Source: an uncultured Coriobacteriaceae bacterium (GTDB lineage Bacteria; Actinomycetota; Coriobacteriia; Coriobacteriales; Atopobiaceae). From it: a DNA stretch of 64,000 bases. Of the stretch, positions 47,166 to 62,779 are shown one piece after another. How positions within the stretch are numbered: position 1 is the stretch's first letter; every line of letters starts with the position of its first letter. The position numbers and the translations under genes are program-made. A model generated the notes under the pieces. It was given only the letters and a program-made list of their open reading frames with translations, did not search any database and had not been told where the DNA came from. The stretch covers positions 1-64,000 of the forward strand of contig CADBCS010000001.1 of NCBI GenBank assembly GCA_902793195.1, read 5' to 3'.

Positions 47166-47891
47166 ATGAAGACGCATGCAGTCATTATTGCGGGAGGATC
47201 CGGTTCGCGCATGGGCCAGGACATCCCCAAGCAGTTTATTAACGTTTGCGACAAGCCCGTGCTGGTCTACACGCTGGAGAGCTTCCAGCGCCACGAGCTG
47301 GTGGACGACATTGTGGTGGTGTGCATAGACGGCTGGCATGAGGTCGTTCGCGCATACGCGCGCCAATTCGAGATTACCAAGCTCAGTCAGGTGGTGCCGG
47401 GTGGCGACACGGGACAGGAGTCCATACGCAACGGCGTCTACGCCCTGGAGGGCGTGGCCGACCCGGACGACCTCGCGATTATCCACGATGGCATTCGCCC
47501 GTTGGTTGCGCCCGAGGTTCTCTCGGATGTTATCCATGTGGCAGCCAAGAACGGCAATGCCGTTACCAGCCTGCCCTATAACGAGCAAATCTTCGTGGTG
47601 GACGAGGACGATCCCACAACCACCACCACGTTCATACCGCGCGAGACGCTGCGCCGCGTCTCAACGCCGCAGGCCTATCGCTTCGACGTGCTGGACGCCG
47701 CCTATCACGAGGCGTTCGAGCGCGAGGTTGGTATCTATGGCAGCCACTACACCAACACCATGATGGTGGAGCTGGGCCATACCCTCCATTTTGCGGCCGG
47801 TTCCGACAAGAACATCAAGCTCACCACTAAGGACGACCTGGAGATGTTCAAGGCGTACTTGCATCAGGACGAGGACACGTGGCTTAAGTAG
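47166..47891 (+). CDS. IspD/TarI-like cytidylyltransferase
   Basis: The 241-aa protein has the signature IIAGGSGSRMGQDIPKQF (7-24), D-G-I-R-P (IHDGIRPLV) and the Thr/Lys residues near TPQAYRFD and NIKLTTKDD. It belongs to the IspD/TarI group that makes CDP-methylerythritol, CDP-ribitol or related CDP-alditols. Neighbours are an SDR and cell-wall genes rather than isoprenoid genes, so I favour a CDP-alditol for a wall polymer. The epimerase starts 9 bp after its stop. Confidence 0.8.
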   Translation: MKTHAVIIAGGSGSRMGQDIPKQFINVCDKPVLVYTLESFQRHELVDDIVVVCIDGWHEVVRAYARQFEITKLSQVVPGGDTGQESIRNGVYALEGVADPDDLAIIHDGIRPLVAPEVLSDVIHVAAKNGNAVTSLPYNEQIFVVDEDDPTTTTTFIPRETLRRVSTPQAYRFDVLDAAYHEAFEREVGIYGSHYTNTMMVELGHTLHFAAGSDKNIKLTTKDDLEMFKAYLHQDEDTWLK

Positions 47892-47900
47892 GGAGTTGCC

Positions 47901-48965
47901 ATGCACAGGTTGGATCATCCGCTCTATCAAGAGGATCTTGCGCTCGTTGCCAACAGCAACGTGGACTGGAGCGTGTTGGACGGCACGACGATTGCCGTTT
48001 CGGGGGCGACGGGCATGGTGGGGACGTTTTTGGTTGACGTCCTCATGCACAAGGTGCACGCGGGCACGCTCGACTGCCGTGTGCTTGCCCTGGGTCGCAA
48101 CCAGGACCGCGCGCGCGGCAGGTTGCCGTACTTCGACGACGAGCGCTTTGCGTTCGAGGAGCTCGACGTGAGCGTTCCCGGTGCGGCGCCCAAGGCGTCG
48201 GCAAACGTCGTGGTGCATCTTGCGAGCACCACGCACCCGCGTGCCTATGCCACGCAGCCCATTGCCACCATTACGTCCAACGTGGTGGGCCTGCAGAATC
48301 TCCTGGAGTGGCAGCTTGCGACGGCAGGGGAGCGTGGCAGGTTCGTCTTTGCCTCGTCGGTGGAGATCTATGGAGAGAATCGCGGCGACGTGGAGCGCTT
48401 TGCCGAGGACTACTGCGGGTATCTGGACTGCAACACGCTGCGCGCGGGCTATCCGGAGGCGAAGCGCCTGTGCGAGGCCATGTGCCAGGCCTACGCCTCG
48501 GAGCGGGGGGCTCACGTCTATGTTCCGCGGCTGCCGCGCATCTATGGCCCCACGCTGCTCGCCAGCGACACCAAGGCACTCTCGCAGTTCCTGCACAAGG
48601 CCGTCGCCCACGAGGACGTGGTGCTCAAGAGCGAGGGTACCCAAACGTTCTCGTATCTGTACGTTGCCGACGCGGTGTGCGCCCTGCTGTGGGTGCTTAC
48701 CAGGGGCGAGCAGGGCGTTGCGTACAACGCGGCCGACGAGAGGGGTGACGTGGCCCTGCGCGACCTGGCGACAGGAATCGCCCAGGCGGGTGGCAGCAAG
48801 GTGGTGTTCGACCTGCCCGACGAGGTTGAGCGTGCCGGATACTCCACGGCGACCAAGGCGCTGCTCGATGGCTCGCGCCTGCGTGCGCTGGGCTGGTGGG
48901 CGCACTATGGGATGGACGAGGGCCTCGCGCGTACGGTGCGCATGCTGTCGGAGATCTGGAAATAG
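47901..48965 (+). CDS. NAD-dependent epimerase/dehydratase
   Basis: This 354-aa extended SDR has the nucleotide motif VSGATGMVGTFLV, the FASSVEIYGENRGD segment and YPEAK (the Y-x-x-x-K pair). PRLPRIYGPT and SYLYVADAV follow as in sugar-nucleotide epimerases. The ATG follows GGGAG by 6 nt. Coupled to the cytidylyltransferase, it may act on the same activated alditol or sugar. The gene ends just before a long hairpin. Confidence 0.8.
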   Translation: MHRLDHPLYQEDLALVANSNVDWSVLDGTTIAVSGATGMVGTFLVDVLMHKVHAGTLDCRVLALGRNQDRARGRLPYFDDERFAFEELDVSVPGAAPKASANVVVHLASTTHPRAYATQPIATITSNVVGLQNLLEWQLATAGERGRFVFASSVEIYGENRGDVERFAEDYCGYLDCNTLRAGYPEAKRLCEAMCQAYASERGAHVYVPRLPRIYGPTLLASDTKALSQFLHKAVAHEDVVLKSEGTQTFSYLYVADAVCALLWVLTRGEQGVAYNAADERGDVALRDLATGIAQAGGSKVVFDLPDEVERAGYSTATKALLDGSRLRALGWWAHYGMDEGLARTVRMLSEIWK

Positions 48966-48966
48966 A

Positions 48967-49046
48967 AGCTGAGAAAAGGGGCCAAACCCCCTTTCTCACT
49001 TTGCTCCGCAAACGTGAGAAAGGGGGTTTGGCCCCTTTTCTCAGCT
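48967..49046. repeat. perfect 33-bp-arm inverted repeat with 14-nt loop, copy 1
   Basis: The arms 48967-48999 and 49014-49046 are exact complements; the loop TTTGCTCCGCAAAC can extend the stem. It lies between convergent genes and could end transcription both ways. A related hairpin stands at 55715-55792, where it cannot serve as a terminator for either neighbour. Confidence 0.85.
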
Positions 49047-49049
49047 GGG

Positions 49050-49277
49050 TTACTCTGCCTGAAGCTTGTCGATGAGCTCCTTCATCGCGGCGACGGTGTT
49101 GAAGTTCTCGGGCTCGAGGTCCTCCACGTCAATCTCGATGTCGAACTCCTCGTTGAACTCGCCCACGATGGTGATGATGTCAAACGAGTCCAGGATGTCG
49201 TCGTCGATGAGACGGTCCTCGTTGAGGAAGTCGACGTCGGGACGTACCTCTTCCAGAATTGCCAGAATGTCTTCCAC
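49050..49277 (-). CDS. acyl carrier protein (DltC-like)
   Basis: The 75-aa acidic protein has the phosphopantetheine site D30-S31-F32 (DILDSFDII) in the usual place. It starts at a GTG (49277) with AGGAGG 8 nt upstream. It is the last gene of the leftward operon with MBOAT and adenylating enzyme, so it should carry the activated D-alanine or other acyl group as DltC does. Confidence 0.85.
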   Translation of the reverse strand: MEDILAILEEVRPDVDFLNEDRLIDDDILDSFDIITIVGEFNEEFDIEIDVEDLEPENFNTVAAMKELIDKLQAE

Positions 49278-49288
49278 GGTTGCTCCTC

Positions 49289-50095
49289 CTAATCCAAAGA
49301 AAACTGCCACACCACGCGAGAGGTGGCGCGAAACCCCATACGTTCGTGAAGCGCGATGGAGGCGGCGTTGGTGTCGCTGATCCACGTGCTCACTCGTAGC
49401 TTACCAGTTTGCCATGCATCCGTTGCGCACAATGACAGCAGGGCGCGCGCGATGCCGCGACGCTCGTGGTGCTCGTCCACCACAATGTGACGCATCAGGC
49501 GCGTCTTGCCGGCGTCCTGCCACCAGATGGCACCCGCCAGCTCGCCGTCCTCGTCCAGGGCGCAGTACACCACGTCGCCCGTCGCAAGGAACTCCCGGTG
49601 CTCGAGTGGGATGTCGGCAACGTTGAGGCGGCGCTCCCAGAGCGCGACCACCTTAAGCGCCAAGACCTCGTCCACACAACGTACGAGCTCGTAGCCCGCC
49701 GGCTCCGCATCGGTCGCGTGGTCCACGCATGCCTCTGCTGGCCGCGCGAGCACATACTGGCCGTTGCGCTTGTCTATGTGCAGTCCCGCCTGCGCAAGCC
49801 ATGTTTGGTGCTGCTCGTCGCAGGCGCCGGTCTCCTCCACGTAGAGCGGGACGTTGTCGTGCAGGGCGGGCAGCGGTGCACCGGGCCGCCAGTAGTAGTA
49901 CAGCGTGGCATAGCCGCCCTCGTCCACGCGCACGAGCAACCCGTTGTCGTGGCGGGCAAAGGAGAGCCTGCCTGCGGCTGCGGGGGCGGCAAACGCCGAG
50001 CTCATGACCTTGCAGTTGCTGCACACCTTGCCCAACCGGGCCTTGTTGTCCTTAACCAGCGTGCGGTAGTGGTCCAGGTCCAATACGCGCTGCAT
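49289..50095 (-). CDS. GNAT-family N-acetyltransferase
   Basis: The 268-aa protein's C-terminal half has the GNAT core: HIVVDEHHERRGIARALLSL with the R/Q-x-x-G-x-A acetyl-CoA loop, and NAASIALHERMGF. The N-terminal half (to about residue 140) is uncharacterised. It starts one base after the adenylating-enzyme stop and ends 11 bp before the carrier protein start. A GNAT between the DltA-like and DltC-like genes is unusual and may supply or modify the acyl group. Confidence 0.8.
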   Translation of the reverse strand: MQRVLDLDHYRTLVKDNKARLGKVCSNCKVMSSAFAAPAAAGRLSFARHDNGLLVRVDEGGYATLYYYWRPGAPLPALHDNVPLYVEETGACDEQHQTWLAQAGLHIDKRNGQYVLARPAEACVDHATDAEPAGYELVRCVDEVLALKVVALWERRLNVADIPLEHREFLATGDVVYCALDEDGELAGAIWWQDAGKTRLMRHIVVDEHHERRGIARALLSLCATDAWQTGKLRVSTWISDTNAASIALHERMGFRATSRVVWQFSLD

Positions 50096-50096
50096 G

Positions 50097-51608
50097 TTAG
50101 CGACCTCGCTCGTCGTAGATGCGGCGCAGCTCCTTGCGGTCGATCTTGCCGTTCTTGTTGAGGGGCAGGTTGTCCATGGGCAAGAAGATGTTGGGGATCA
50201 TGTACTTGGGCACCACGCGCTTGAGGGCGGCAATGATCTGCAGCTTGGTCACGTCTCCCACATAGCACGCCACGATCTTGTTGCGCACGTCGTCAAACAG
50301 GCAGCAGGCGCGCGTCACGCCCTCCACGGCACCCATGTGGGCCTCGATCTCCTCAAGCTCGATGCGGTGTCCCATGTGCTTGATTTGGAAGTCCTTGCGT
50401 GCGGCAAAGTAGTAGTTGCCGTCCTCGGCGAACTCGGCAAGGTCGCCGGTACGGTACATGACCTGCGGATATGCGGTATTGAGCGGGTTTTGCACAAACG
50501 CCTGTGCCGTGCGCTCGGGATTGCGGTAGTACCCCAGCGCGAGGCAGGTGCCCGTAACGCAGATCTCGCCGGTTTGCCCAACCGCCACGGGCTGGTCGTG
50601 CTCGTTGAGCACCAGCACCTCCTCGTTGGCAAAGACCTTGCCCAAAGGCAGGCGCTCGGTGAGCCCAAACTCGCGGTCGAGCACATAGTACATGCAGTTG
50701 CAGGTGATCTCGGTGGGGCCGTAGAGGTTGACGAAGGTGGCGTTGGGCAGGGCCTCGCGCCACACGTTGAGCAGCTTGATGGGCATGACCTCGCCCGAGA
50801 AGAGCACGTTGCGCAACGTGGCGGGGGCACCGTGCTTAAAGCCGTTGACGCCGGCCACGATGCACAGCGCCGACACGGCCCACACGATGGTGGTGATGCG
50901 CTCCTCGTCGAGTGTTCGCACAAGCAGCTTGGGCATCGAGAAGCACTTGCGCGGAATGATGTACATGGTCGCGCCGCAGTACAGCGTGGAGTAGATGTCC
51001 TTTACCGATACGTCAAAGTCAAAGGGCGCCTGGTTGCCAAACACCTCGTCCTCGCAAAAGCCAAAGGTGTCAACAAACACGGGTATGAAGTCGAGCAGCG
51101 AGCGATGCGACACCAGCACGGCCTTGGGAACGCCCGTCGAGCCCGACGTGCAGATGGCATAGCAGGGATCGATGTCCAGGCAGCCGGCACGTGCCTGGTC
51201 GATGGCATCTTGGTCGATGGGCGTGGACACCAGCTCCTCGTACGCCACAATGGGAATGCTGGAGAGCGCGCGCAGCTCGGCAGGCGCTTCGTCGATGGCG
51301 ATGAGCATCTGCGGGCGAACCTGGCCCAAGATGCTTGCGATGCGCTCTACCGGTTGGGTTTGGTCGATGGGCACGTAGAAGTTGCGGCTTAAGATGATGC
51401 CCATAAAGGCGCAGACGCTCTGCACGTTGCGGTCGATGAGGACCGCCACGGGCTGATTGGGCGTCGTGCTGTGGTGCAGCAGGGTGCTGGCCACGTGTTG
51501 GGCCGTCTCCCACACCTGCGCAAAGGTCATGCGTGAGGCTGTGTCGGCAAAGGCGACCTTGTTGGGCCGGGCTTGCGCCGACCGCTCCAGCAATTCAATA
51601 GCATTCAT
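50097..51608 (-). CDS. AMP-forming adenylating enzyme (DltA-like)
   Basis: The 503-aa ANL enzyme has TSGSTGVPKAVLVSHRSL (P-loop), NLYGPTEITC, YRTGDLAEF and the catalytic Lys in NKNGKIDRKEL near the C-terminus. The length and the NQAPFDFDVSVKDIY segment fit DltA, which activates D-alanine with ATP and loads it on DltC. The start at 51608 follows AGGAG by 6 nt. Substrate choice cannot be confirmed by eye. Confidence 0.85.
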   Translation of the reverse strand: MNAIELLERSAQARPNKVAFADTASRMTFAQVWETAQHVASTLLHHSTTPNQPVAVLIDRNVQSVCAFMGIILSRNFYVPIDQTQPVERIASILGQVRPQMLIAIDEAPAELRALSSIPIVAYEELVSTPIDQDAIDQARAGCLDIDPCYAICTSGSTGVPKAVLVSHRSLLDFIPVFVDTFGFCEDEVFGNQAPFDFDVSVKDIYSTLYCGATMYIIPRKCFSMPKLLVRTLDEERITTIVWAVSALCIVAGVNGFKHGAPATLRNVLFSGEVMPIKLLNVWREALPNATFVNLYGPTEITCNCMYYVLDREFGLTERLPLGKVFANEEVLVLNEHDQPVAVGQTGEICVTGTCLALGYYRNPERTAQAFVQNPLNTAYPQVMYRTGDLAEFAEDGNYYFAARKDFQIKHMGHRIELEEIEAHMGAVEGVTRACCLFDDVRNKIVACYVGDVTKLQIIAALKRVVPKYMIPNIFLPMDNLPLNKNGKIDRKELRRIYDERGR

Positions 51609-51616
51609 ATGTGCTC

Positions 51617-53212
51617 CTAGAACCGTCCGTAAATAAAGCTGCTGGCATCGAAGGCGGGGCCCCACATGCCAAACACAAACACGGCGGCGATTCCGCCGTA
51701 GTAGATGATCCAGCGCAAGGGGAGCCGCTGGCGGTCGATGGCCTCGCGCAGGTGGATGCCGTGCTCGTGCTTGCGGTCCACCCACACAAGCACCGCAATG
51801 GCCGCAAAGAGCAGCATCCAGTTGCGCTCGGTAAGGCCAAGAGAAAGGCGGGTGCTCTCGCTGAGCCAGGTGAAGTTGTTCCACTCGGCGAAGATGGAGC
51901 CAAACATCTGCCACGCCGCCTCGAGGGTCTCTCCGCGCGAGAAGAGGCGCCCGAGCGAGCAGATGATGAACGTACGCACGATTTGGAACGTGCGCCAGTA
52001 GAACGACTCACGATCTATGTGCAGCTTGTCCGCCCACTTGGCATACTGCTCGGGCAAGAGGATCCCTGCCACGAGGAAGATGCCGTTCCACACGCCGTAC
52101 ATGATGTACTTCCAGTCGGCGCCATGCCAAAAGCCCACGAGGAAGTAGACCGTAAACATGGCCAGGATGGGCGGCAGGCGCTTGCCCACGAAGTCACCCA
52201 AGAAACGGCGCGACTTGCGACTGAGGTTGGCAAACGCCTTTGAGAGCGAGAGGGGGTAGAACACGTAGTTCTTCATCCAGCTGCCCAGCGTAATGTGCCA
52301 CCTGCGCCAGAAGTCCTCGATGCTGGTGGAGAAGTACGGCTGCTTGAAGTTGAGCTCCAGCTCGATGCCGAGCATCTGGGCCACGCCGCGCGCCACGTCC
52401 ATGCCGCCCGAGAAGTCGGTGTAGACCTGCAGGCCGTAACCTGCTGCGGCGACGAACAGCATGAGGCCGTGGTACTGGGTGTAGTTCTCGAATACCTGGC
52501 CCACAGGAACGGCAAGGCGGTCGGCGATGACCATCTTTTGGAAGAGACCCCACAGCGCGAGCTGTGCGCCATGGCACAGGCGCGTGTAGTCGAAGTCGTG
52601 CGGCTCGTAGAGCTGCTTCGCCAGCTGGGCGTGCCGTGGGATGGGGCCCTGCACGATCTGCGGGAAGAACGACATAAAGAGGGTGAACTTTAGGAAGTTG
52701 CGGTCGGCCTTGACCTTGCCCCTAAAGACGTCGGTCATGTAGGCGATGGCCTGCAGGGTGTAGAACGAGATGCCCAGCGGCAGCAGGAAGGCAAAGTGAG
52801 GTGGCGTGATGCCAAGAGGTTTGAGGAGCCCGGCTGCGTTGTCGGCAAAGAAGTCGTAGTACTTGAGCAACAGCAGTGCCCCCAGCACCAGACACACGCC
52901 CAAGGCTAGGATGCGGCGCGAGCGCTTCTTGGCCTTGGCGCGCAGGGCCTTCTTTTCGGCACGATCTAGCTTTTTTCCCGCTGCGGCAAGCTCGTCCTTG
53001 CCGCGCTTGTTGGATGCCTCGATCCAAAGGGCCACGCCAAAGGTGACGGCAACGGTTGCCAAGAGGATGAGCAGGAGCCACCCGCTGTTGATCCAGTAGA
53101 AGGCAAGGCTCGCCACCAGCAGAGTGACCCAGCGGAATCGTTTGGGCGTGACGAAGTATGCCAGGATCGTAACGCCCACAAAGGCGAAGAAGGCGAGGTC
53201 GGTAAAGCTCAT
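51617..53212 (-). CDS. MBOAT-family membrane O-acyltransferase (DltB-like)
   Basis: The 531-aa multi-pass protein has the MBOAT core: FPQIVQGPIPRH, YADFSGG-type YTDFSGGMDVARG, NFKQPYFSTSIEDFWRRWHI, and the catalytic His in VGFWHGADWKYIMYG. It would carry the acyl group from the carrier protein across the membrane. Its ATG overlaps the stop of the SGNH gene (TAATG). The N-terminal 130 residues with a KRSRR-rich loop are longer than in typical DltB. Confidence 0.9.
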   Translation of the reverse strand: MSFTDLAFFAFVGVTILAYFVTPKRFRWVTLLVASLAFYWINSGWLLLILLATVAVTFGVALWIEASNKRGKDELAAAGKKLDRAEKKALRAKAKKRSRRILALGVCLVLGALLLLKYYDFFADNAAGLLKPLGITPPHFAFLLPLGISFYTLQAIAYMTDVFRGKVKADRNFLKFTLFMSFFPQIVQGPIPRHAQLAKQLYEPHDFDYTRLCHGAQLALWGLFQKMVIADRLAVPVGQVFENYTQYHGLMLFVAAAGYGLQVYTDFSGGMDVARGVAQMLGIELELNFKQPYFSTSIEDFWRRWHITLGSWMKNYVFYPLSLSKAFANLSRKSRRFLGDFVGKRLPPILAMFTVYFLVGFWHGADWKYIMYGVWNGIFLVAGILLPEQYAKWADKLHIDRESFYWRTFQIVRTFIICSLGRLFSRGETLEAAWQMFGSIFAEWNNFTWLSESTRLSLGLTERNWMLLFAAIAVLVWVDRKHEHGIHLREAIDRQRLPLRWIIYYGGIAAVFVFGMWGPAFDASSFIYGRF

Positions 53213-55614
53213 TACTCAGCCTCCAAGTCATTTTGTTGTGTCGCATCCTCCAGTGGAGTTGCCTCCTGCGCAGGGGTTGTTGCGGCTGCGTCCCCAGTAA
53301 CAGCTCCGGCGTCAGCGACGTCCGTTACGTTTGCTCCGGTGGCACCAGTCGCATCTGCGCCGGTGGCCGTGGTTGCCGTGGTGGATTGTGCTGCGGCGGT
53401 GGCAGCCGCCACCTCGTCGCGCGTGCGGACCTCCTGGGTAAAGTTGACTTGCTCCACGATCTCGCCCGACACGGGGTCGTATACCAGTGCGTGCAGGCCG
53501 CGTGCGTTGGTCGCATGGTTGGTGCCGTAGCCGCCGGCAGCGATGCGAATGATGGCACGGTTGCCCGCGGCCCAGCCGGCGCTCTCCAGCTCGAAGTCCT
53601 GCGCCTGGATGGAGGCCACGTCGCTGTCCGATGCGCTTGCCTCTTGGATGGTTCCGTCGGCGTTAATGACGGCGCAGTACGACTCGCGGTAATTGAGGTT
53701 GGCGAGCTGGACGAGACCCATGTCTGCCAAGGCCTTGCAGTCCTCGGTGCTCAGCAGCTGCGCCGCCTCGTCCTTGGCACACAGCAGCACGCGCAGCTGT
53801 GCATTGCCCATGTAGTCCTTGAGGAACTGGGCGATGTAGGGTATGTGCGAACCGCTGGCAACCTGCCGGGCGCGCGTGTCGTGCAAGGCGCGCATGTTGT
53901 AGCGATACAGGCTCTTTTGCGCGGGTTGCAGGGTCTCGTAGCTGTTTCCCTTGGCGATGAGCTCCTCGGGATTGGAACGATCGGCCAAGGTACGTTCCGC
54001 CTCGGCGAACGTGTCGAAGTTGGCCGTGTTTACCACTCGATGCGTGTCGTTGTCGTACACCACAATGTTGAGGCCGCGGCTGTCGGGGCTGTTCTCGTTG
54101 TCATCTATGGTACACGAGGAGGTATTGCCCATGTTGGGACCACCGCTTTTGAGCGTGCATCTCCTGCCGTCGGTGAGCAGAGTCTCGTATGTGAGGGGTT
54201 GTGATCCCATGTCCTTGTCGAACGAGATGTCGTCGTAGGCAAGGTAGGGCGGGCTCGTTTGGCTGGTGAGGGGGCTGGGCGGTGCGGTGCTCGTGTCCTT
54301 TTTTACCGCCTCGTATGCCACGGTGCCGTTGGTGACCATCCCCACGTAGGCGTCGTGGTAGCCAAGCGTGGCAAGGTCGGTGAGGCCAAGACCCCAAAAC
54401 GTCTTGCGCTGTGTTGCGGTGAGGCTCTTGGTGGCGTCGTCCTTGGCGGTAATGAGCAGGGTGTAGTTGCCGCTGGCCATGAGGCCCTTTACGTATTCGG
54501 CGGGGTCGGTTTCCTCGAGTGCTCCGTGCAGCGGGTCGAACTTGGCGTGCCAGTCCTTTACCTCCTGCTCCATAAAGGAGTATTTTGGATCGCTGCGCAC
54601 GTCGGCGAGCTGGCACTCGTTGTGCAGATAGCGGGCTATCCACGACGAGAGCTTTGCTGCGCCGCTGTAGCTTAAGTGATAGCTGTCGGTTGTGTCGAAG
54701 TTGGGGTTAAAGGCAATCTCATCGAGCAGGGGATTGACCTCAAAGTCGAGGAAGGTGATACCGTAACGGCTGGTGAGGTTGTCGATGGCGTTGTGTTCAC
54801 CGTCGCTCCAAGACCAGCCAGAAGTTGGTGTGGCAAACACCACAAGGCGTAGGTTCTGCTCGCGGCAGTAGGTCACCAGACGCTCAAAGTACACCAAGGC
54901 GTCCGCGTTGAGCTGTGCCTGCTTCTGGTTGTCGGTAACGGTGGCAAGTGGGGTGGCCACCGCGGCGGGGTCTGTTCCCTCGAGGTACTGGGAATAGGTG
55001 GTGTTGTAGCCTCGGTAGAACGCGCTGTTGGTGGGCTCGTTCTTAATGAAGTCGGAATAGTTAAGGCTCGACCAGCGGTCGTGGTAGGCAAAGCTGGGAA
55101 CGAGGTACGAAAAGAACTCGTCTGGGTCTTGGGCGAGGTCCTGCGCGGCCTCGAGCTTTACTGGTGAGAGCTGCATGTTGTCGAACGCCTTGTGATAAAA
55201 GGAGATGGTAGGCGAGCTCGGCTTGCGCAGCTGGGAGGCGTCGAACATCACGACCTTGAGTGCGTTGGGATGCAGACGCTTGGCCTCCTTGGTCCAGTAG
55301 TACGACATCATGGGCGGCTGGATCTCGGTCCCCAGGTTGTACGCGCAGACGCCCTGCTCTTCGTACATCTGCGTGGGAATGAATCCGTTTACCGTCATGC
55401 TGGCGCCCAGGAAGATGGCCTCCACGGTGTCGTTGGGCTGCTGGTAGAAGCCGCGGTGGGTGTGGTAGTTGTTCCATTCGTACCATGCAGGCTGGAAGAG
55501 CGTGTTGGCGCACGAGAGCAAGAGCAGCAGTATGGCGGCAAAGCCAGCAATTCGGAGTGCGACAAAGCGCGGTTGCGTTTGTTCGTTGGTGTCGTTTGCC
55601 TGTTTGTGCAGCAT
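53212..55614 (-). CDS. DltD/SGNH-like protein fused to ILEI-like domains
   Basis: The 800-aa protein has one N-terminal membrane anchor (22-40) and then an SGNH-like hydrolase or transferase with GAS (S72, FLGASMTVNGFIP) and D310-x-x-H313 (DSYHLSYSGAAKL). Residues 380-730 hold two sets of ILEI/PANDER-like half-domains. C-type halves (LLITAKDDATKSL, 386-398; LLCAKDEAAQLL, 610-621) alternate with N-type halves (SRGLNIVVYDNDT, 512-524; ARGLHALVYDPVSG, 704-717). The tail (735-800) is Ala/Thr-rich. It is the first gene of the Dlt-like operon and probably does the outside acyl-transfer step. GGAAGG lies 6 nt before ATG 55614. Confidence 0.8.
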   Translation of the reverse strand: MLHKQANDTNEQTQPRFVALRIAGFAAILLLLLSCANTLFQPAWYEWNNYHTHRGFYQQPNDTVEAIFLGASMTVNGFIPTQMYEEQGVCAYNLGTEIQPPMMSYYWTKEAKRLHPNALKVVMFDASQLRKPSSPTISFYHKAFDNMQLSPVKLEAAQDLAQDPDEFFSYLVPSFAYHDRWSSLNYSDFIKNEPTNSAFYRGYNTTYSQYLEGTDPAAVATPLATVTDNQKQAQLNADALVYFERLVTYCREQNLRLVVFATPTSGWSWSDGEHNAIDNLTSRYGITFLDFEVNPLLDEIAFNPNFDTTDSYHLSYSGAAKLSSWIARYLHNECQLADVRSDPKYSFMEQEVKDWHAKFDPLHGALEETDPAEYVKGLMASGNYTLLITAKDDATKSLTATQRKTFWGLGLTDLATLGYHDAYVGMVTNGTVAYEAVKKDTSTAPPSPLTSQTSPPYLAYDDISFDKDMGSQPLTYETLLTDGRRCTLKSGGPNMGNTSSCTIDDNENSPDSRGLNIVVYDNDTHRVVNTANFDTFAEAERTLADRSNPEELIAKGNSYETLQPAQKSLYRYNMRALHDTRARQVASGSHIPYIAQFLKDYMGNAQLRVLLCAKDEAAQLLSTEDCKALADMGLVQLANLNYRESYCAVINADGTIQEASASDSDVASIQAQDFELESAGWAAGNRAIIRIAAGGYGTNHATNARGLHALVYDPVSGEIVEQVNFTQEVRTRDEVAAATAAAQSTTATTATGADATGATGANVTDVADAGAVTGDAAATTPAQEATPLEDATQQNDLEAE

Positions 55615-55714: not shown

Positions 55715-55792
55715 GCTGGGAATAGGGGCCAGACCCCTTTTCTCATTTTGCAAGGCAAACATGAGAAAAGGGGTCTGGCCCCTATTCCCAGC
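55715..55792. repeat. perfect 32-bp-arm inverted repeat with 14-nt loop, copy 2
   Basis: The arms 55715-55746 and 55761-55792 are exact complements; the loop TTTGCAAGGCAAAC matches the copy 1 loop at most positions. The arm shares GGGGCC...ACCCC and TTTTCTCA features with copy 1. It stands between divergent starts, so it is more likely a mobile repeat or leader structure than a terminator. Confidence 0.85.
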
Positions 55793-55821: not shown

Positions 55822-55851
55822 TTGCACGTGCCAATGTTCTCCTGCTATCAT
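55822..55851 (+). promoter_or_regulatory. candidate promoter of the CHAP-like protein gene
   Basis: TTGCAC and TATCAT are separated by 18 bp, 45 bp before ATG 55897. Confidence 0.45.
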
Positions 55852-55896
55852 TGGGAGTGCTCAAAACACACCTCATTCGCACGGGAGACAACTAAC

Positions 55897-57561
55897 ATGG
55901 ACAAGTCTGTTGCAAGGCGCATCTTTGCGGTAATACTCTCGGTGGTGACTGCCGTGCAGAGTCCGGCCGCGATTGCGCTTGCCGAGCAGAGCGAGTTGCC
56001 TGCAAGCGAGCTGACTGTCCAGACCACCGAGCCCCAAGACGTCTCGCAAGGCGCCGCGCAACCTGCTGAGCAACCCGGCGAAGAAACCTCCCAACCCACG
56101 TACGTGGACTACGTGCCGTTGCAAAATGGCCAAACGGATAACGTGGAGGTCGTGGAGGAGCCACAGGCCATGGAGGGATACCAGGTGGAGGTGGTGGAGC
56201 CCGAGCCAAAGCCCACTCCCACCGAACAGGTCCTCGAGGTGCAGGAAGATGGCGGTACGGACGCGGAGGTCGAGGTACTGAGCACGGCAAGTCAGACCCC
56301 AGCGCTCAACTGCGACTTTGTGCAGAGCTGCGAGCGCGAGCTTTCAAACTGGCCCGCAGGAAAAAAGAGTTCGGAGTGGGATTGCAAATACTGGGTGGGG
56401 CCATATCCCGAACAATATACCGACCGAGAGCCAATTGATCAAAACAAGGGTGGCCACTGGGGTTACTCCACATGGTGTAGCGAGTTTGTGGGCTGGAACC
56501 TATGGAACGTGGGGTTGGTCCCTGGCCAGACCATGCCGTACGTCCCCGACCGCTCGTCTGCGTACTACGACTTCTACAGTGCTCACTCCAACTTGGCGGA
56601 GATTCACGAGAACAACGGATCCTACACGCCGCGCCGTGGCGACATCGTCCTTACCAACGGCCTTGGCCATACCGAGATGGTATCGGAGGTGGAGGCTGGC
56701 GGCATGAGCTGGACGGGCGTTTCCGGTGGCGACATGCTCGCTCGTGTGAGGCACGAGATAACCGACAAGACGTACAAGTACTTTATTACCATCAAGTGGG
56801 GCAACACCAACGTGCCGCACAAGGTCGACACCAGCGTTCCGCTCACCCATGTGGTTGCCAAGGCCATTGGCGACCAAAAGTGGACGGGCAAGGCCGTCAC
56901 GCCCAAGCCGACCATTACCTATGGCTACCACACCCTGCGTGAGGGGACCGACTACACCCTCTCCTACAAGAACAACGTGAACAGCGGCACCGCGCGCGTG
57001 GTCATAACGGGCAAGGGTGCCTACTATGGCACCAAGACCTTGTCGTTTACCATCCTCGAGTCCCAGACGACCAAGACCCCCGTGGTGTCGTATTGCACGC
57101 ATGTGCAAAGGATTGGTTGGCAGGGATACGTTAAGGACGGTACTGTGAGCGGCACTTCGGGCCAAAGCAAGCGGCTGGAGGGCATCCGCATCAATCTGAG
57201 CAACCTGCCGGTTTCTGGTGGCATCCAGTATCGCACCCACATCCAGCGCAAGGGCTGGGAGAAGGACTGGAAGTCCAATGGCACCATGAGCGGAACCTCT
57301 GGCAAGAGCCTGCGCCTCGAGGCTATACAGATTCGGCTGACGGGCGAGATGGCCCAGAAGTACGACGTATACTATCGCGTGCATGCCCAGAAGATCGGCT
57401 GGATGGGCTGGGCCAAGAACGGCGCGAATGCGGGAACGGCGGGCTACTCCTATCGCCTGGAGGCCATCCAGATCGTGCTCGTGCCCAAGGGTCAGAGCAG
57501 GCCGACGGCCACGCTGGGCGGTGTGCGCCAGAAGGTCTCGACACCGTTCAAGAAACGCTAG
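55897..57561 (+). CDS. secreted CHAP-like amidase with Ig-like domain and three hydrophobic-W repeats
   Basis: The 554-aa protein has a signal peptide (RIFAVILSVVTAVQSPAAIA, cut near 29) and a long acidic linker. Its CHAP/NlpC-like domain has Cys195 (YSTWCSEFVGW) and His259 (NGLGHTEMV). An Ig-like unit follows (KWTGKAVTPKPTITYGYHTL), then three W-repeats with SGTSGQSKRLEGI, SGTSGKSLRLEAI and AGTAGYSYRLEAI. The catalytic pair suggests peptidoglycan amidase or endopeptidase action, with the W-repeats as wall anchors. ATG 55897 is chosen for the signal peptide; its ribosome site (GGGAGA, 9 nt) is moderate. Confidence 0.82.
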   Translation: MDKSVARRIFAVILSVVTAVQSPAAIALAEQSELPASELTVQTTEPQDVSQGAAQPAEQPGEETSQPTYVDYVPLQNGQTDNVEVVEEPQAMEGYQVEVVEPEPKPTPTEQVLEVQEDGGTDAEVEVLSTASQTPALNCDFVQSCERELSNWPAGKKSSEWDCKYWVGPYPEQYTDREPIDQNKGGHWGYSTWCSEFVGWNLWNVGLVPGQTMPYVPDRSSAYYDFYSAHSNLAEIHENNGSYTPRRGDIVLTNGLGHTEMVSEVEAGGMSWTGVSGGDMLARVRHEITDKTYKYFITIKWGNTNVPHKVDTSVPLTHVVAKAIGDQKWTGKAVTPKPTITYGYHTLREGTDYTLSYKNNVNSGTARVVITGKGAYYGTKTLSFTILESQTTKTPVVSYCTHVQRIGWQGYVKDGTVSGTSGQSKRLEGIRINLSNLPVSGGIQYRTHIQRKGWEKDWKSNGTMSGTSGKSLRLEAIQIRLTGEMAQKYDVYYRVHAQKIGWMGWAKNGANAGTAGYSYRLEAIQIVLVPKGQSRPTATLGGVRQKVSTPFKKR

Positions 57562-57613: not shown

Positions 57614-59653
57614 ATGTGGGTTGAGCTGCTGGGAACCGTTGTCGTGCTGCTCCTGCTGCTCTACGTGCCCGGTACGTTGCTGCTGCGGGGCCTGGGCCTC
57701 TCGCGCGTGGTGGCGCTGTGCTGTGCGCCCTGCGTGAGCATAGGTGCCTACGCCGTGTTGCCCATTGCCTACGGCATGCTGGGGGTTCGTTGCTCGGCGC
57801 TTGCCGTGGGGTTGCCCGTGCTGCTGCTTGGCGCGCTCGTGTGGGTAGTGGGTCGCACGTGCGCGAAGGGGAGTGGCGTGTTGGACGTGAGTCCACAGGG
57901 GCCCGTTTGCCTGCGCGGACGAGCCGTTTCGTTTGACGTGCTTGTGCCGGCGTGCTATGTGGTGGTGGCGATGGCCGTGTGCTGTTTGGTGTTTGTGGGC
58001 AACCTCAGCGGTCCGGAGTCCTTTGCGTGTGACTACGACAACCAGACGCACCTCAATGCCGTGCGAGCGTTTTTGGACTCGGGCATGTGGTCGACCCTGC
58101 ATGTGGGGCCATATCTGGCAGTGCCTTCTGGCATGGCTCCGGTTTTGTCTGCGACAGGTAGCCTGTACCCTGCAGGTTGGCACGACGTGGTAACGCTCGC
58201 GTGTGCGATAACGGGCGTGTCGGTTCCCTTGGCGACCAATGCCATGATCGTGGCCATGTGCGGCGTGGCCTATCCGCTGAGCGCGTATCTGTTCCTGCGG
58301 GCCTTGCTGGCGAACAACCGCACTGCGGTGACCACAGGTGCGGTGCTTCCCGCTGCGTGTGCGGCTGTGCCGTGGATATTCGTGGGGTTGGGACCGACCC
58401 TTCCCGACATGGCGGGACGCGTGCTTGTGCTGGCGCCGTTGGGTGCGGTGGTCCTGTTTGTGCGGGATGCGGATCTGCACGCGCGCTGGCAGCGTCTTGT
58501 GGCGTTCGTGCTGTGCGCGGGGGCGGGTTTGGTGCTGCTGCACCCCAACACGTTCTTCTCGGCATACGTGTTCCTTGCGGCGTTTGGCGCACACGAGATG
58601 TGGCATCGATTTGGTGGAGCACGTCGTGCCCGATGGTTGGTGGGATACTGTGTGCTGGTGGTCGTGGGGTGGGTGATGGTGCACGAGCTGCCGTTTATGC
58701 GCTCGACCCTGCGATACTACTTTCCCGAACAGCGCGGCCTCGTTGCCGTGTTGCGCACCATCGTTACGTTTGGGTTGGACTTTGGCTGCGCCCAGCCGGT
58801 GCTCATGCTGCTTGCCGTGGCAGGCATCGTGGCGGTGGTGCGTCGCCGCGAGCTGTGGCTGCTGTTTGCGCCGGCGTACTTCTGTGTGTGCCTGATCGCG
58901 ATTGGTGTGGGGTGTCAGTCCGTGTCCTTTTGGCTTGCGGGGCCGTGGTACCAGGCGAGCGTGCGGTTTCCCATCAACATCTATATATTTGCGCTCCCGT
59001 GTCTGGCGCTGGGGCTTGGCGCGCTCGTGTTGGCGGTCCGTCGCTGGGTCGAGTCGCACGGCTTGCGTCCCATGCTGGGGCGTGTGGCCACGGGCGGGCT
59101 GGTGGCAGTGCTGTGCATTGCCAACTTTCTGCCGGTGAGCATGCGCGATGCCCAAACGGGGAAGGGGTACGAGTCGTCCTTTGCACGCGTGGGGCGCAAG
59201 ATGTACGGCGTGGTGGGTGACGAGCGTAGGCGCATGTACGACGCGGGTGAGCGTGCGTTCGTGGAGCGTGTTGTGCGGGAGTTGCCAGAGGGTGCTTACG
59301 TGTACAATGCGCCCAACGACGGCAGCATGTGGGCGTATGCCGCAAACGAGCTGCGCGTGTGCTTTAGGAATCGGCAGACACATGGCCAAACCGACGACGC
59401 AGTTCTGGTGCGTCGGCACCTGAGCGAGTATGCCACCAACCAGGCGGTGCGCGAGGCCGTGGCTCGCATGGGGATCAAGTATGTGCTGCTGCTCGACAAG
59501 GGAGTCTCGTATGAGGATGGCGTGTGGCTGAGCCAGTATCATAAGGGGCAGGTCGCCGAGTGGGAGGGCATTACCTCCATAGATGACACCACGCCGGGCT
59601 TTGGCGTCGTGCTGTCCGAGGGCGACGAGATGCGACTGTACAGGATAGGCTAG
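57614..59653 (+). CDS. DUF6541-like polytopic membrane protein, copy 1
   Basis: The 679-aa protein has about 14 membrane segments and a C-terminal outside domain (VVRELPEGAYVYNAPNDGSM, DKGVSYEDGVWLSQYHKG, SEGDEMRLYRIG). A paralogue of 673 aa lies inverted at 60758-62779, sharing the ends (SEGDMRLYRID) and the VYNAPNDGSMW/VINAPPDGSMW block. The layout suggests a GT-C-type glycosyltransferase or polymer-handling protein in the envelope; activity is unproven. Confidence 0.75.
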   Translation: MWVELLGTVVVLLLLLYVPGTLLLRGLGLSRVVALCCAPCVSIGAYAVLPIAYGMLGVRCSALAVGLPVLLLGALVWVVGRTCAKGSGVLDVSPQGPVCLRGRAVSFDVLVPACYVVVAMAVCCLVFVGNLSGPESFACDYDNQTHLNAVRAFLDSGMWSTLHVGPYLAVPSGMAPVLSATGSLYPAGWHDVVTLACAITGVSVPLATNAMIVAMCGVAYPLSAYLFLRALLANNRTAVTTGAVLPAACAAVPWIFVGLGPTLPDMAGRVLVLAPLGAVVLFVRDADLHARWQRLVAFVLCAGAGLVLLHPNTFFSAYVFLAAFGAHEMWHRFGGARRARWLVGYCVLVVVGWVMVHELPFMRSTLRYYFPEQRGLVAVLRTIVTFGLDFGCAQPVLMLLAVAGIVAVVRRRELWLLFAPAYFCVCLIAIGVGCQSVSFWLAGPWYQASVRFPINIYIFALPCLALGLGALVLAVRRWVESHGLRPMLGRVATGGLVAVLCIANFLPVSMRDAQTGKGYESSFARVGRKMYGVVGDERRRMYDAGERAFVERVVRELPEGAYVYNAPNDGSMWAYAANELRVCFRNRQTHGQTDDAVLVRRHLSEYATNQAVREAVARMGIKYVLLLDKGVSYEDGVWLSQYHKGQVAEWEGITSIDDTTPGFGVVLSEGDEMRLYRIG

Positions 59654-60757: not shown

Positions 60758-62779
60758 TCAGTCGATGCGATAGAGGCGCATGTCCCCCTCGGAGAGGACG
60801 AGCGAGAAGCCCGGCGTGTCGTCGTCGACGCTGGTGATGCCCGCCCACAGCACCTGGTCGTCCCATTCGTACTGCCACAGCCACCACCCGTCCCCATAGG
60901 GAACGTCCTTGTCCAGCAGCAGCACGTAGGTCGCACCCGTCCGGGCCACTGCGTCACGCACGCGACTGTCCTGCGCGTACCTGCTCAGGGACTCTCGAAT
61001 GAGGACGGCGTCATCCGTGTGCCCCTTAACCTTGACATCGCGGTAGTAGGTGTTGAGGCCGTTGACGCCGTAGGACCACATGCTGCCATCCGGTGGCGCG
61101 TTGATGACCAGCGCGTCCTTGGGGATCGTATCGCGCACGCGGTTGACGAAGTCCACCTCGTCGGCGGAGTAGATGCACTCCCGGTATCGCGCCCCGATAA
61201 GCCATGCCGCCTCGTTGAGCGGAGTCTGCAAGTGTAGGTTGGGAAGCGGGATGAGCAAGGGGAAGAAGGCCATTATCAACGCGCACGCGGCAACGGTCAC
61301 CCGTGCGATGTCTGCGATGCGCGTTGTTGGTGCGTCGTCTTGTAATGCCTGCCTGTGGGGAAGGAGGGTGTTGAGGCCAATTGCCGCCACGGGCATTGCG
61401 AAGATGGTAAAGTTGGCGGCCATGCGCCGCAGGTCGGAGTACCACAGTGCGGCCACCCAATGCTTGACGAGCCACCAGTCGGCGCGTGCGGCAAGGTAGC
61501 CAAGTGCAAAGAAGCACAGTGACAGCAGGAGCCAGCGCCTGCGGGGAGTGCGCGCGACGCACACGACGCCCACCCACGTGAGGGCTGCCATGCCGAGTTG
61601 CATGTGGGTAAAGCAGAAGCTCATCCCAAAGAAGTCGGGGAGAATCTGGAGCAGCTCGGTCTGCTCGCGTTCCACGTACCCAATGGTGGGCTGCAATGCG
61701 GGGACCGCATAGAACAGCACCCACGGCACGATTATGGCCACCCAATATACCGCAAGCGCAAGTCCCCGATGCATGGGTAGGCGTGGGGCCCGCCAGATGC
61801 GGTGTGCCCCATAGAAGGCGAGATACAGGTAGCACGAGAACACCGTGGACGGATGGGCAAGCGCAAGTGCGACAAGCGAGACGAGCGTGAGGATGACGAG
61901 ACGGGGGATGTGCCGTCGCACGCCCGTAAGACTTGCCGCCGTGAGAGCCAAGGCGAGCGCGCCCATCTGCAGGGCGATGCCAAACAGGTTGGGGTGGAGC
62001 GGGCCGGTGTGGATGTACTGCCAGGGCCAGTTGGCAAATCCCACCGAGACCAGCGCCCCCAACAGGATGGTGCGACGCTCGTTGGGCAGCAGCGCGCGCA
62101 TGAAGGCGAACATGCCAAGGGGAAACACGATGGCGCACGAGGCGCCCACAACGGCGTTGAGGGCGACCATGAGGTCGACGCGGGATACCTGTGCGACGAG
62201 CACCACCACGCAGTTCCAGCCGCTGGGATAGAACCCGCCGTTGCCGGCGATGGAGCGTCCCTGCTCGGTGTTGGCCAAGAAGGTGCTGGTGTGCAGGGAA
62301 GACCAGCGTCCCGAGTCCAGGAAGGCCCGGCACAGGTTGAGGTGCGTGTTGTTGTCGTAGCGGGGTGCGAAGGCGTCCGCGCCGGGCAGCTGGCACACGA
62401 AGACGCAAAGGCACACGACGGTGGCCACGAGCAAGAAAGAGAGCGCGCCTACGACGTTGAACGGGCAGGAGCGTCCACAAAGCTCGAGCGGCTCTGCGGG
62501 GCTAAGCGCCAGCGCCGGTGCGGACGTGCCACGCCAACGACGCCAGCCGTATGCCAGAAGGGCGACGAGACAGGTTGGGCCAAGGATGGTGAGCGGGTCG
62601 CATGATATGCCCAGCTCGTAGTAGACGATGGGCAGTGAGGAATATGCCGCAACGCCAAACAGCGGTGCGGCGCACAGCGAAAGCGCTCGCGAGACCCTAA
62701 GCGCCCGGAGGAAGAGGTAGCCCGGCAGGTAGAGCAGTACGATCACCGCTGCCGTCGCCCAAGCGAATTCCCCCCACAT
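60758..62779 (-). CDS. DUF6541-like polytopic membrane protein, copy 2
   Basis: This 673-aa paralogue of the gene at 57614 has the same layout: YLPGYLFLRALRVSRALSLC start, FAPRYDNNTHLNLCRAFLDS matching CDYDNQTHLNAVRAFLDS, ATGSLYPAGW-like NGGFYPSGWN, and the common C-terminal VINAPPDGSMWSYG and LLLDKDVPYGDGWWL. It starts 21 bp after the flippase stop on the same strand, so the two probably act together in polymer assembly. Confidence 0.75.
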   Translation of the reverse strand: MWGEFAWATAAVIVLLYLPGYLFLRALRVSRALSLCAAPLFGVAAYSSLPIVYYELGISCDPLTILGPTCLVALLAYGWRRWRGTSAPALALSPAEPLELCGRSCPFNVVGALSFLLVATVVCLCVFVCQLPGADAFAPRYDNNTHLNLCRAFLDSGRWSSLHTSTFLANTEQGRSIAGNGGFYPSGWNCVVVLVAQVSRVDLMVALNAVVGASCAIVFPLGMFAFMRALLPNERRTILLGALVSVGFANWPWQYIHTGPLHPNLFGIALQMGALALALTAASLTGVRRHIPRLVILTLVSLVALALAHPSTVFSCYLYLAFYGAHRIWRAPRLPMHRGLALAVYWVAIIVPWVLFYAVPALQPTIGYVEREQTELLQILPDFFGMSFCFTHMQLGMAALTWVGVVCVARTPRRRWLLLSLCFFALGYLAARADWWLVKHWVAALWYSDLRRMAANFTIFAMPVAAIGLNTLLPHRQALQDDAPTTRIADIARVTVAACALIMAFFPLLIPLPNLHLQTPLNEAAWLIGARYRECIYSADEVDFVNRVRDTIPKDALVINAPPDGSMWSYGVNGLNTYYRDVKVKGHTDDAVLIRESLSRYAQDSRVRDAVARTGATYVLLLDKDVPYGDGWWLWQYEWDDQVLWAGITSVDDDTPGFSLVLSEGDMRLYRID

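Follow-up and report, generated by a model that had tools for sequence, protein, structure and literature searches.

In the Dlt pathway of D-alanylation, the acyl group travels via the tyrosine of the FxYxxF motif of DltX, and other MBOATs bear FxYxxF on their own C-terminus (PMC12148441). PatA/PatB-type acyltransferases combine an MBOAT ending in this motif with an SGNH partner. The ILEI domain, or GG-type lectin (PF15711), occurs in FAM3A, FAM3B and FAM3C, the POMGnT1 stem and TMEM2/CEMIP. Sugar binding or a role as a carbohydrate-binding module has been reported for FAM3C and the POMGnT1 stem. POMGnT1 binds GlcNAc through R129, D179 and R207 (PMC9802357). A phage adhesin module with an ILEI-type fold was described as a carbohydrate-binding module (PMC9437275). 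The POMGnT1-stem-like CBM_1 of the phage TP-778L Tal represents the ILEI-type fold in the bacterial world, in a protein that recognises surface glycans; unlike the units described below, its halves have the canonical N-half-then-C-half order (at a weak sequence score).

The stretch of DNA analysed here, 64,000 nucleotides in full and called the window, encodes an SGNH protein. It is best described as the acyltransferase of a Dlt-like relay, extended by two ILEI units (GG-type lectins) in circularly permuted form.

The operon and its proposed acyl relay

The SGNH gene is the first of a five-gene operon and is followed on the same strand by genes for an MBOAT, an adenylation enzyme, a GNAT protein and a carrier protein (Table 1). 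The true start of the carrier protein is probably downstream of 49385.

Table 1. Coordinates of the SGNH protein, its parts and the other operon genes in the window
Feature	Position	Strand	Remarks
SGNH acyltransferase-like protein of 800 aa, two permuted ILEI units at its C-terminus	53212..55614	(-)	L008 and L009 homologues begin at comparable positions
Hydrophobic N-terminal segment (membrane anchor), residues 17-42	55489..55566	(-)	from sequence; topology inferred
SGNH/GDSL-type domain with S72 (55399-55401), D310, H313	54559..55437	(-)	
Permuted ILEI unit 1, residues 356-541: C-half ~370-440, linker, N-half ~473-540	53992..54549	(-)	
Helical connector between units 1 and 2, residues 541-590	53845..53994	(-)	AF2 helices
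Permuted ILEI unit 2, residues 595-736: C-half ~595-657, N-half ~672-730	53407..53832	(-)	
Ala/Thr-rich low-complexity C-terminal tail, residues 737-800	53215..53406	(-)	from sequence
DltB-like MBOAT	51617..53212	(-)	PF03062 E=7e-13; TIGR04091 149.9 bits, under cut-off 375
FIYGRF (FxYxxF acyl-shuttle motif) at MBOAT C-terminus	51620-51637	(-)	
DltA-like amino-acid adenylation enzyme	50097..51617	(-)	PF00501 E=1e-63; TIGR01733 above cut-off, DltA models under
GNAT acetyltransferase-like protein within operon	49289..50095	(-)	conserved in L008 and L009
Acyl carrier protein (DltC-like), phosphopantetheine Ser 49185-49187	49050..49385	(-)	PF00550 above cut-off

Like DltD, the window protein is an SGNH protein with a membrane anchor, and its gene neighbours are DltB-, DltA- and DltC-like. 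The motif GAS with S72, the residues D310 and H313 and the N-terminal hydrophobic segment are present, as in DltD; all three residues were found where the initial annotation had put them. S72 and H313 are invariant in an alignment of nine SGNH relatives. PF13472 was matched by four of these nine (best E=2.7e-5), and the window protein reached 0.09. The DltD model PF04914 had zero matches at E up to 1 in the window protein and the nine relatives. Membership of the SGNH domain in the DltD family by sequence was rejected. The earlier term 'DltD-like' is thus kept for operon and mechanism and dropped for the family: the label holds by operon context and, by analogy, the proposed mechanism only. 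The added C-terminal lectin-like units also set the protein apart from DltD.

The MBOAT has an FWHG motif near residues 361-364, with the WHG histidine. Its relatives end in FIYGQF, FIYQQF, FIYMQY and similar motifs. Most of the unit-bearing SGNH genes adjoin an MBOAT gene, together with adenylation-enzyme and carrier-protein genes where the contig extends. In contrast to the Dlt pathway, the shuttle motif is fused to the MBOAT and not located on a DltX microprotein. The models for DltA, DltB and DltC matched under their cut-offs, and the acyl group therefore need not be D-alanine. Unlike PatA/PatB-type systems, the window system uses a carrier protein and an adenylation enzyme, and its SGNH partner has permuted ILEI units. 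Because FIYGRF sits on the MBOAT itself, we infer that the system resembles a relay that draws on a carrier protein and has its shuttle fused. The Dlt-like context anticipated for the SGNH protein was borne out by this gene content.

The adenylation enzyme would load an amino acid onto the carrier protein. The MBOAT would carry it across the membrane onto the tyrosine of its own C-terminal motif. S72 of the extracellular SGNH domain would accept the acyl group and hand it to a cell-surface polymer. The tandem ILEI units would keep the acceptor polymer near the SGNH site, probably by binding one of its sugars. We consider it likely that the protein works outside the cell as the SGNH partner of a Dlt-like MBOAT relay and that its two ILEI lectin domains, each circularly permuted, hold the acceptor.

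Several features were observed around the operon. Palindromic repeats at 48967-49046 and 55715-55792, each with two arms of 35-36 nt and a loop of 8 nt, flank the five genes, and similar copies are scattered across the genome. A ChW-repeat protein is encoded at 55822-57561. Convergent genes for DUF6541 membrane proteins (57614-59653 (+) and 60758-62779 (-)) lie on either side of an acyltransferase-3 gene. On the other flank, positions 47166-48965 encode an IspD/TarI-type cytidylyltransferase beside an NAD-dependent epimerase, which may serve a polyol-phosphate polymer.

ILEI homology and reversed order of the halves

ILEI was the single Pfam family found in the 800-aa protein (PF15711; E=1.4e-14, 54.8 bits, curated cut-off 27). 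This HMM search had been proposed beforehand as a test of the ILEI-like blocks recognised in the initial annotation, and the match above the cut-off, well outside chance expectation, confirms them. Residues 513-538 align to positions 1-26 of the profile, and window positions 53796-53668 to positions 43-85. Each unit passed the cut-off separately, unit 1 with 35.2 bits and unit 2 with 28.7 bits. The motifs AKDDA, RGLNIVVYD, AKDEA and RGLHALVYD follow each other along the protein as C-half, N-half, C-half and N-half. This order, read correctly from the start, is kept in 18 units of 12 proteins from three genera; 15 of the 18 units match PF15711 at E up to 0.1. The initial boundaries were slightly generous and have been replaced by those in Table 1.

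The canonical N-half-then-C-half order of ILEI is reversed in every unit examined, and the units therefore depart from ordinary ILEI domains as a circularly permuted variant. Rejoining the halves in canonical order gave one near-full ILEI match each (profile positions 1-83 for unit 1, 1-85 for unit 2 and 1-89 for the relative L003, in a model of 90). The scores rose from 35.2 to 39.6 bits, from 28.7 to 34.3 bits and from 37.9 to 45.9 bits, respectively.

A profile built from the 18 permuted units was run against all PDB sequences. It matched FAM3C (1.1e-9), FAM3B (1.4e-8), POMGnT1 (7.8e-8), FAM3A (5.1e-7) and TMEM2 (8e-4), and below E=0.001 only proteins of these kinds. The half order in the PDB chains was read from five alignments to FAM3C, FAM3B and POMGnT1. 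All five have profile positions 102-162 before 15-84 in the chain, opposite to the bacterial units. The window units share the sequence profile and the sugar-contact arginine and aspartate with ILEI/GG-type lectins and, in models of moderate confidence, the predicted fold. They differ in being circularly permuted, bacterial and in tandem, and the bacterial permuted units are fused to an SGNH acyltransferase or a pyruvyltransferase. A report of a natural circularly permuted FAM3/POMGnT1 domain was not found in the open-access literature.

Predicted structure

The AlphaFold2 model of unit 1 alone, with six alignment rows, had a pLDDT of 72 and a pTM of 0.71. The two-unit region, with three alignment rows, had a pLDDT of 59 and a pTM of 0.42. 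The best VIA-align rows of the unit 1 model were TMEM2 (Z 7.0), POMGnT1 (5.1-5.4), FAM3C (4.2-4.5) and FAM3B (4.2), values in a range where unrelated folds score too. Rows 1-8 for unit 1 and rows 1-9 for the two-unit model are all ILEI domains (Z 7.0 to 4.2), with the next unrelated folds at 3.4 and 3.7. Foldseek alone gave nothing significant for either model (best E ~0.3), and the family pattern of the matches alone is informative. The Z values are unconvincing by themselves and agree with the sequence result. The fold comparison proposed in the initial annotation thus put ILEI domains at the top for both models, at moderate confidence and by sequential alignment.

Relatives and distribution

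Unit-bearing genomes were 11 of 140 in the family, from three genera. A class-wide draw of 396 genomes held no carriers beyond these genera, and across the phylum, a set of 396 genomes gave no canonical-order ILEI. Viral contigs and phage records contained no relatives, and PHROGs gave no match. Two-unit orthologues (L008, L009) occur in named Coriobacteriales MAGs. Genus g9 has the two-unit proteins L050, L051 and L053, plus L052, which ends at the contig end. The proteins of genus g20 have a single unit (L054-L056), as does L003 from the genus of the window. A connector-like segment after the ILEI unit was also seen by eye in relatives, single-unit ones included (L050, L053, L054-L056). In the tree, the unit-2 copies of g1 and g9 cluster together (support 81/87). 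The unit duplication is probably older than these genera, because their unit-2 copies form one group.

The module is not restricted to SGNH proteins. The genome of L009 encodes a FrhB-type/polysaccharide pyruvyltransferase fusion that ends in a single permuted ILEI unit (L057:6016-8904 (-)). This enzyme is probably cytoplasmic, so the permuted module would not be exclusively extracellular.

Another Dlt-like operon contains an SGNH protein that has a long extension at the N-terminus and faintly resembles a permuted ILEI unit at the C-terminus (L022:2598-5162 (+)). This C-terminus scored 14.0 bits as a possible single unit versus at most 3.4 in 500 shuffles, with the N-half strand alone aligning, and is a tentative candidate for a further permuted unit. 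In the SGNH paralogues L023, L024 and L026 of the genus, the C-terminal module is absent or unrelated. These paralogues are consistent with a swappable targeting part at the SGNH C-terminus.

Putative sugar-binding site

The POMGnT1 residues R129, D179 and R207 (chain positions 43, 93 and 121) map to RG(L/I)N, KD(D/E) and the arginine of WRD; the mapped positions are spaced by 50 and 28, matching expectation. Unit 1 of the window protein has R513, D392 and H420 at these positions. Unit 2 has R705, D615 and R643, a complete triad. Unit 2 has the full R/D/R set in the window protein, L008 and L009; in L053, unit 1 has it. The putative site would form within one permuted unit, since its first arginine comes from the N-half and the aspartate and second arginine from the C-half.

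The equivalents of R129 and D179 are both retained in 12 of the 18 units, including both units of the window protein. They are absent from the g20 units and L003, and the R207 equivalent is not conserved in most units. Some units may therefore not bind sugars via these contacts. Glycan steering of the acyl transfer is a plausible hypothesis, consistent with published work on FAM3 and POMGnT1 and with the contact residues, of which two of the three are kept in both window units and all three in unit 2.

Alternative readings

The initial annotation left circular permutation and an interlocked pair side by side. In an interlocked pair, the N-half of unit 1 would join the C-half of unit 2 in canonical order with an insert, the C-half of unit 1 would join the N-half of unit 2, and the two domains would be entwined. 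N1-C2 follows the canonical order, in which the two halves match PF15711, and the connector of ~55 aa would allow such pairing. This arrangement is very improbable: L003, L054, L055, L056 and L057 have the C-N order without a partner unit, unit 1 reached its pTM of 0.71 when modelled alone, and in the tree the copies of unit 1 and unit 2 act as separate C-N blocks. Circular permutation of each unit is favoured because of these single-unit proteins and the predicted folding of unit 1 on its own. The break would separate the 'FD' strand from the first helix, and a loop would join the former termini.

The function of the permuted units could also be a different one. They might act as structural spacers, or dock to proteins, as in MBOAT contact or dimerisation, and would then not bind sugars. 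FAM3 proteins act as secreted signalling proteins, the third contact residue is variable, and arginine and aspartate are lost in some units. We regard this as rather unlikely, given the retention of both residues in two thirds of the units (12/18, both window units included), the reports on FAM3C, the POMGnT1 stem and the phage adhesin module as sugar binders or carbohydrate-binding modules, and the permuted unit of the polysaccharide pyruvyltransferase. Many SGNH/GDSL proteins are esterases, and thioesterase I was the closest PDB profile match of the SGNH domain, at a level that is not significant (E 0.14). A hydrolase that removes acyl or aminoacyl groups, with the ILEI units targeting the modified polymer, is nonetheless improbable, as an operon with an FIYGRF-bearing MBOAT, an adenylation enzyme and a carrier protein has the layout of acyl-transfer pairs (PMC12148441).

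Possible targeting of envelope-glycan modification

As a naturally occurring circular permutant, the unit shows where the FAM3/POMGnT1 fold accepts new termini. In a family of Coriobacteriales, the circularly permuted GG-type lectin may be a mobile targeting module, shared by the SGNH proteins of MBOAT relays and a polysaccharide pyruvyltransferase, that guides the modification of envelope glycans to a particular polymer, with SGNH paralogues changing target by a swap of the C-terminal module; we give this a chance slightly short of even. The choice of polymer by Dlt-like relays is poorly understood. With a lectin built into the SGNH partner, the choice of acceptor would become accessible to direct tests.
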